From: Chloroflexota bacterium
GTDB lineage: Bacteria > Chloroflexota > Dehalococcoidia > JACPEP01
NCBI GenBank assembly: GCA_016183425.1
Contig: JACPEP010000001.1
Location: 1 to 64,000, forward strand
Direction of reading: 5' to 3'
Length of the DNA stretch: 64,000 nucleotides
In this document: piece after piece, positions 16,321 through 17,560 of the stretch
Layout of the letters: every line of letters starts with the position of its first letter
How positions within the stretch are numbered: the first letter of the stretch is position 1
The notes under the pieces: generated by a model
Database searches by the model: none
Seen by the model: only the letters and a program-made list of their open reading frames with translations
Told to the model about the DNA's origin: nothing
Made by a program: the position numbers and the translations under genes

Positions 16321-16389
16321 GTTTTAGACAAGTGTAGTATCGAAGGGCTTTCTTATAAAGAGCCTCTTGCAGAAGGAGGGCCAATTTAG

Positions 16390-16740
16390 GTGCTCTGGAC
16401 AACGGATAAAGTTCCCCGCAGTACCCCTGAGGAGGCCAAAGCCAGGCTGGATTCCGACGACAACATAGTTATCTTGGATGTGCGCCGCGCTGAGAGCTAC
16501 GAGAGGCGTCGGATAAGAGGGGCTATTTCCATTCCCTTCGCCCAGCTCAGGGATGAGATGCATCGCATTCCTAAACAGGCACAGGTCATTACCTATTGAA
16601 CATGACCCAATGAGTTTACTAGTGCCCGTGCGGCACATATTTTAGCGCAGAATGGTTATTCCGCAGCCGCCCTGGTGGGAGGGCTTCGGGCCTGGATGAA
16701 CGCTGCCTATCCCACAGAGCCAGAGATGGGCCAGTCCTGA
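16390..16740 (+). CDS. rhodanese-domain protein with two in-frame TGA codons at Cys positions: candidate selenoprotein
   Basis: GTG start with AAGGAGG at 16372-16378. The frame encodes a complete single rhodanese domain: NIVILDVRRAESYERRRIRG, IPFAQLRDEM, then VITY, TGA (16597-16599), Thr, TGA (16603-16605), PNEFTSARAAHILAQNGY and ALVGGLRAWMNAAYPTE, ending at a third, true TGA at 16738-16740. In homologues as I recall them the active-site loop reads YCxCPNExTSAR, so both TGA codons fall exactly on the two cysteines; the second aligns with the catalytic Cys (C-x5-S). Reading both as selenocysteine gives an intact 116-residue sulfurtransferase-type protein. Selenoprotein rhodaneses are known in bacteria. 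The alternative is a pseudogene with two independent nonsense changes at exactly these codons. If UGA is read as stop, the product is a 69-residue fragment without active site. Confidence 0.7.
16622..16636 (+). promoter_or_regulatory. bSECIS-like hairpin downstream of the rhodanese TGA codons
   Basis: GTGCC (16622-16626) pairs with GGCAC (16632-16636) around the loop CGTGC, which has G at its second position. The loop begins 21 bases after the second TGA and 27 after the first, within the distance and loop rules described for bacterial selenocysteine insertion elements. The stem is only five pairs and lies inside coding sequence, so it is supportive but not decisive. Confidence 0.45.
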
Positions 16741-16777
16741 CGACAAAGGGAGAAGTGGGAGGTGGTGGCGGGGGGCC

Positions 16778-17560
16778 TCAGTGCCTGGCAGGAGGCCGGC
16801 TCTCCCCTGATGCCGGAGCCGTAGCCGTCCCAGACAGTATCTGGAGGCCATAGGGGCACTGGTGTCTCAAAGAGCACCCGGAGCACAGGGGCACTTTGCG
16901 GCAGGTGTCCTTTCCATGGCGCACCAGAAGGGCGTGATACTCGTTGAACAGAGATACGTCGTGGGACAGGTTCTCCATAAACAGGGCCTGGTATGAGGTA
17001 TAGTCCTCCTTGGGGGGCGCTAAGCCCAGGCGCTGGAGAATGCGCCGGGTATAGGCATCGATGACGAAGATGGGTTTGTGGGCAGCGTAGAGGATGATGG
17101 AGTCTGCCGTCTCCTGGCCGATGCCGTGGATGGAAAGAAGCTCACGGCGCAGGGAATCCAGGGAGAGGCGGAAGAGGTCGTCCAGTTTGTCCCCATAGCC
17201 ATCTCCCAGGCGCTGCGCCAGGGCTTTCAGCTTGTGGGCCTTGGCGTTATAGTAGCCACAGGGGTAGATGAGCTGGGCAAGCTTTTCCAGGGGGAGTTGC
17301 TTTATGGCCGCGGGGCTGAGGGCCCCCGCCGCCGCCAGGTTGCCAATGCCCTTCTCCACGTTGCCCCAGGCCGCCGACTGGGTGAGGATGGCCCCCACCA
17401 TGACCTCAAAGGGCTCCTTGGCCGGCCACCAGTGCTGGGGGCCGTAGGAATCCCAAAGGACCTGATAGAGGTGAGATAAGGCTTTACCTCGGGTTTCCCC
17501 TGTCCCATCTTCGGGCAAAGGAACTGCCTGGAACGGGATAAACTCTTTTTCTGTCACCAC
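16778..17560 (-). CDS. MagIII-like HhH-GPD DNA glycosylase with 4Fe-4S cluster
   Basis: Base-excision repair glycosylase of the endonuclease III superfamily. The helix-hairpin-helix LLSIHGIGQETADSI is followed by the catalytic Asp segment IFVIDAYTRRIL. The Lys that makes EndoIII a bifunctional lyase is replaced by Gln (GIGQET), so it should be monofunctional, as in 3-methyladenine glycosylase III. The C-terminal CRKVPLCSGCSLRHQC supplies the four iron-sulfur cysteines. At 260 residues it is slightly longer than EndoIII, with extra Pro-rich tails. It faces the rhodanese gene tail to tail. Confidence 0.88.
   Translation of the reverse strand: MVTEKEFIPFQAVPLPEDGTGETRGKALSHLYQVLWDSYGPQHWWPAKEPFEVMVGAILTQSAAWGNVEKGIGNLAAAGALSPAAIKQLPLEKLAQLIYPCGYYNAKAHKLKALAQRLGDGYGDKLDDLFRLSLDSLRRELLSIHGIGQETADSIILYAAHKPIFVIDAYTRRILQRLGLAPPKEDYTSYQALFMENLSHDVSLFNEYHALLVRHGKDTCRKVPLCSGCSLRHQCPYGLQILSGTATAPASGESRPPARH

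Follow-up and report, generated by a model that had tools for sequence, protein, structure and literature searches.

Selenocysteine-containing rhodaneses are already known, and the closest described family to the protein considered here is NCBIfam NF041203 (rhodanese_LYCAU, 'rhodanese-related (seleno)protein'). It is listed in a 2026 review as rhodanese form 3, a CxU protein with one selenocysteine (Sec) (Table 1, PMC13188914). The candidate protein shares its fold, its loop position and the Sec at the second position, whereas it carries Sec at both positions of the motif (UxU) and the listed family has one (PMC13188914). It scored 87.2 bits against NF041203 and missed the cut-off of 115, which was passed by several UxU proteins from 'Deltaproteobacteria' metagenome-assembled genomes (MAGs; 120.8–177.2 bits). 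Ordinary single-domain rhodaneses (PF00581; GlpE, PspE) have the same fold, and likewise carry the nucleophile where strand 4 ends. Compared with these, the active-site loop here is two residues longer, has a second chalcogen residue and uses Sec in place of Cys. Bacterial families with two closely spaced Sec residues have also been described, namely the Prx-like UxxU, metal-binding NF041115 UxxU and FmdB-type UxxU families and the ULPU protein (PMC13188914). These likewise place two Sec a few codons apart, but they belong to other families and have U-x-x-U rather than U-x-U spacing. A text search of the 119 families or subfamilies in the review found no UxU motif (PMC13188914); the first-pass annotation had remarked that a two-selenocysteine U-x-U active site would be unusual. 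A literature search found no UxU or two-selenocysteine rhodanese; an earlier description is possible in articles outside that search. From sequence comparison, we judge the locus to be genuine and to represent a two-Sec form of a selenoprotein kind already known, and it would widen this poorly understood family from one to two selenocysteines with a spacing absent from the recent inventory (PMC13188914).

The window, meaning the whole 64,000-nucleotide stretch of Chloroflexota DNA that was analysed, contains the following features:

16373-16380 (approximate limits), + strand: AGGAGG-type ribosome binding site, about 10 nt 5' of the GTG start, sequence GCAGAAGGAGGGCCAATTTAGGTG
16390-16740, + strand: putative rhodanese-like gene with two selenocysteines, 116 residues, from a GTG start to a TGA stop, supported by translation, Pfam, AlphaFold2 and PDB fold matches
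16597-16599, + strand: first in-frame UGA (residue 70), matched by HMM and MAFFT alignment to the cysteine that is catalytic in ordinary rhodaneses; TGC or TGT in CxU relatives
16603-16605, + strand: second in-frame UGA (residue 72), within the loop that is 2 residues longer than that of ordinary rhodaneses
16622-16636, + strand: candidate bacterial SECIS, from covariation and a loop G that never varies among UxU and CxU relatives
16741-16824, + strand: in-frame remnant of a second rhodanese C-terminus (VVAGGLSAWQEAGSPLMPEP, ending in a stop), after the stop codon of the UxU gene

The first reading had held that the rhodanese frame is intact over 116 codons save for the TGAs at 16597 and 16603, and translation and the Pfam match agree. 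These two codons alone break the forward frame from 16390 to 16737, which is bounded by an in-frame TAG (16387-16389) directly 5' of the GTG start and by the terminal TGA (16738-16740). With TGA read as Cys, residues 12-104 matched the whole Pfam Rhodanese domain (PF00581; E = 6.5e-15), scoring 55.9 bits against a cut-off of 22.2. The active-site motif is Y-U-T-U-P-N-E-F-T-S-A-R-A-A. Both TGAs fall on the C-x-C positions of homologues, as the first-pass annotation had stated: HMM and MAFFT alignments match residue 70 to the catalytic cysteine, they place residue 72 in the two-residue loop extension, and CxU relatives carry Cys at the first position. Spacing to the conserved Ser had suggested the second Sec as the catalytic residue; this assignment was dropped as both alignments put the first Sec there. 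The AlphaFold2 model had a mean pLDDT of 92.4, and its best PDB fold matches were rhodanese domains. The rhodanese tail at 16741-16824 probably arose by partial duplication and then decayed, a sign of some recombination at this site; it probably lies outside the UxU product. It overlaps the 3' end of an endonuclease III-like open reading frame on the opposite strand (16778-17560).

The same pair of TGAs was found in many other genomes. A DNA pattern (Y-TGA-x-TGA with downstream S-A-R codons) was run on 84,980 species genomes and gave exact matches in at least 60 contigs, against a random-sequence expectation of about 7 by rough arithmetic. All 60 contigs listed read as a rhodanese-like frame with Y-U-x-U and had no stop besides the two UGAs; two were cut by contig ends (L079 and L111) and one was divergent (L105). 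By record title, the contigs listed belong to Chloroflexota, 'Deltaproteobacteria'/Thermodesulfobacteriota, Nitrospirota, Poribacteria, Planctomycetota and Actinobacteria. A protein search of 60 genomes, namely that of the window and 59 others from the same class, recovered the same TGA pair in four relatives (L023, L025, L029 and L031), together with further relatives carrying C-x-TGA. These four were found without selecting for TGA, and some share genomes with pattern-matched contigs. Back-translated nucleotide patterns made from the window protein found no related loci, probably because the Sec sites became Cys and the remainder is too diverged. Two nonsense mutations landing exactly on the two Cys codons had been called a coincidence, and the recurrence of the pair in the 60 contigs listed and the four protein-search relatives upholds that argument; the relatives showed no further disabling stops. 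An assembly error as the source of the TGAs was also rejected, since recurrence in independent assemblies makes sequencing error implausible.

Relatives with one TGA indicate how the pair may have arisen. All single-TGA Chloroflexota relatives that were read (32 loci, 31 distinct sequences) were CxU and none was UxC, and the UxC pattern was absent from all 400 Chloroflexota genomes searched. A CxC pattern search returned two real relatives. The codon for residue 72 was UGA in all of the UxU and CxU relatives that were examined. Given that CxU is common and UxC absent in the 400 genomes, the Sec nearer the hairpin is probably the older of the two. The tree required at least nine changes between UxU and CxU, with many forks weak, and its simplest reading would be an old proximal Sec and a distal Sec that was repeatedly gained or lost.

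Downstream of the second UGA, a 5-bp stem (GUGCC/GGCAC; 16622-16626 with 16632-16636) closes a 5-nt apical loop, CGUGC (16627-16631), at a UGA-to-loop distance of 21 nt from the second UGA and 27 nt from the first. The hairpin and its loop G were as first described; its placement, reported as beginning 21 bases after the second TGA, was not, as the stem starts 17 nt and the loop 22 nt after it. The published bacterial SECIS model has an apical loop of 3–9 nt with G in the first two positions, a stem of 4–16 bp and a loop 16–37 nt from the UGA (PMC13188914). The hairpin fits this model for both UGAs, and it covaries across relatives. No Rfam family matched 16622-16636. Folding stability of the window hairpin was ordinary (z = 0.33 over 54 nt and −1.14 over 35 nt), and it gains significance only by comparison across relatives.

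Across the window and the 60 contigs listed, the middle stem pair (columns 29 and 41, with numbering that starts from 0 at the Tyr codon) was T-A in 32, C-G in 26 and T-G in 3, with no mismatch. Fisher's test gave p = 3e-14 for this pair, a value that is too strong because relatedness is ignored and sequences are treated as independent. AGYGCN and MG were set in the search pattern, which makes conservation at those bases partly a product of its design; the covariation partners and loop position 3 were left free. Loop position 2 was G in 61 of 61 sequences (the window and the 60 contigs listed), a base partly fixed by the search pattern. In the same set loop position 3 was T or G only, whereas the Arg codons CGC and CGA account for about one third of Arg codons elsewhere in UxU genes. 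In a 26-sequence alignment of the hairpin, 99.2% of cells paired, none of 500 shuffles reached the observed covariation score and slid versions all paired far worse. Individual relatives showed compensatory changes: in L139 a C-G pair became T-A together with two residue changes (SVRAT), and in L112 Ser was encoded by TCA and three pairs were changed and re-paired. Stems were broken in the Cys-only relatives L170, L171 and L147 (three sequences only).

Most of the Sec machinery was identified in the window's genome, a 2.7 Mb draft of 52 contigs that is 95.3% complete. Profile searches found SelB (325.6 bits) and a tRNA-Sec with a TCA anticodon (76.6 bits). Two further genes have in-frame UGAs, selD at the usual CAGU site and formate dehydrogenase alpha at LUHSPS. 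The loop after the selD UGA is CGUGC, identical to that of the rhodanese hairpin, and the loop after the fdh UGA is GGUCU. The first-pass annotation had named the Sec machinery as a check, which came out in part: selB, selD and tRNA-Sec are present, and SelA gave no match to TIGR00474 or PF03841 in the 95.3%-complete draft. Nor was SelA found beside selB and selD. Genes next to selB encode NurA, HerA-like, GAF/HD and cytochrome oxidase proteins. Those next to selD encode an ArsP-like permease, a prismane (hybrid-cluster) protein and a two-domain rhodanese (L143, 3350-10812, contig C34, of the same genome). With SelA absent from the draft, Sec synthesis in this strain is incompletely supported. 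A gap in the draft is the likeliest explanation, because SelA was above cut-off in 41 of 47 other UxU genomes and SelB in 44 of 47.

Recurrence of UxU, the covarying candidate SECIS, SelB, tRNA-Sec and the Sec-containing SelD and formate dehydrogenase support the original proposal of a UxU selenoprotein. The gene is almost certainly unbroken, with selenocysteine inserted at both in-frame stop codons. It is highly probable that it encodes a rhodanese-like protein with two Sec in a U-x-U redox-pair active site, both UGAs being decoded through one hairpin; a single hairpin appears to direct both insertions. SelB carrying Sec-tRNA-Sec would dock on this hairpin (16622-16636), and the ribosome would decode the UGA at 16597 and then, two codons on, that at 16603 before melting it. 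The product would be a small rhodanese-like oxidoreductase whose loop, Y-U-T-U-P-N-E, carries Sec at both U positions. A signal sequence is not evident, and the protein is probably cytosolic. The Sec at residue 70 would stand in for the catalytic rhodanese nucleophile, with that at residue 72 as its close partner. At this distance the two Sec could be expected to join in a diselenide. The pair probably passes from selenols to a diselenide, or to an intermediate of the selenenyl-sulfide or -polysulfide type, and back, a cycle that would serve electron or sulfane-sulfur transfer. Such genes would offer a compact natural system for studying how SelB reads two almost adjacent UGAs with a single SECIS, and the naturally occurring CxU and UxU relatives, with the rare CxC ones, would allow the abilities of the diselenide and the selenenylsulfide (CxU) to be compared. 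Ordinary gene callers could take UxU genes for pseudogenes or truncated proteins.

Other explanations of the two TGAs were weighed against this reading. The gene could be a pseudogene, a former CxC rhodanese with two nonsense mutations, and the missing SelA and the decayed rhodanese tail 3' of the gene would be in keeping with that. We consider it very unlikely, as the start signal and full frame are intact, the hairpin constrains synonymous sites and the same two UGAs recur with no other stops in all 60 contigs listed, from several phyla. Genome-wide use of TGA as an ordinary amino acid is refuted by its use as a stop (TGA ends 16 of 41 long open frames in the window), and SelB and a tRNA-Sec with a TCA anticodon are present; the probability we leave to it is negligible. 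A third reading places Sec at the second UGA only, with the first read as Cys or Trp or mostly terminating, which would leave a truncated product and selenium-dependent read-through. The abundance of CxU without UxC and the shorter distance of the second UGA to the hairpin would suit it, and the two-Sec reading presumes that one SECIS can serve a pair of UGAs six bases apart. It is nevertheless improbable: the first TGA is also present in the four class relatives found without TGA selection, its 27 nt to the loop lie within the range of the SECIS model (PMC13188914), and UxU and CxU alternate in the tree (at least nine changes, many forks weak), as expected if TGA functionally equals Cys.

A fourth alternative accepts the two-Sec protein and concerns its function only, taking the C-x-C/U-x-U loop as a metal or metalloid binding site rather than one for redox chemistry or sulfur transfer. 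Sec-containing metal-binding families exist (PMC13188914), and the ArsP-like permease gene adjoins selD in this genome. The fold is that of a rhodanese domain, however, and nine of the 60 UxU genes listed continue into a C-terminal region that has eight CxxCH haem motifs, a cytochrome-like fusion that points to electron transfer; we therefore regard the metal site as rather unlikely. Five of the nine haem-fused proteins were multihaem cytochromes by Pfam, and many other UxU proteins carried signal peptides or lipoboxes (by simple pattern and by eye). For the two-Sec redox protein, the haem extensions and the signal peptides or lipoboxes speak for a role in electron transfer or sulfur redox chemistry rather than in sulfur transfer alone. 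We lean slightly toward a broader picture in which one SECIS serves two Sec one codon apart in a natural diselenide rhodanese site that evolved repeatedly from CxU and became fused to eight-haem cytochromes. The haem-fused loci (L053, L055, L060, L078, L081, L088, L106, L108 and L109) came mostly from deltaproteobacterial MAGs. A Poribacteria UxU rhodanese (L101, from about 2134 on the + strand) had a C-terminal extension of ~420 residues that is free of haem motifs.
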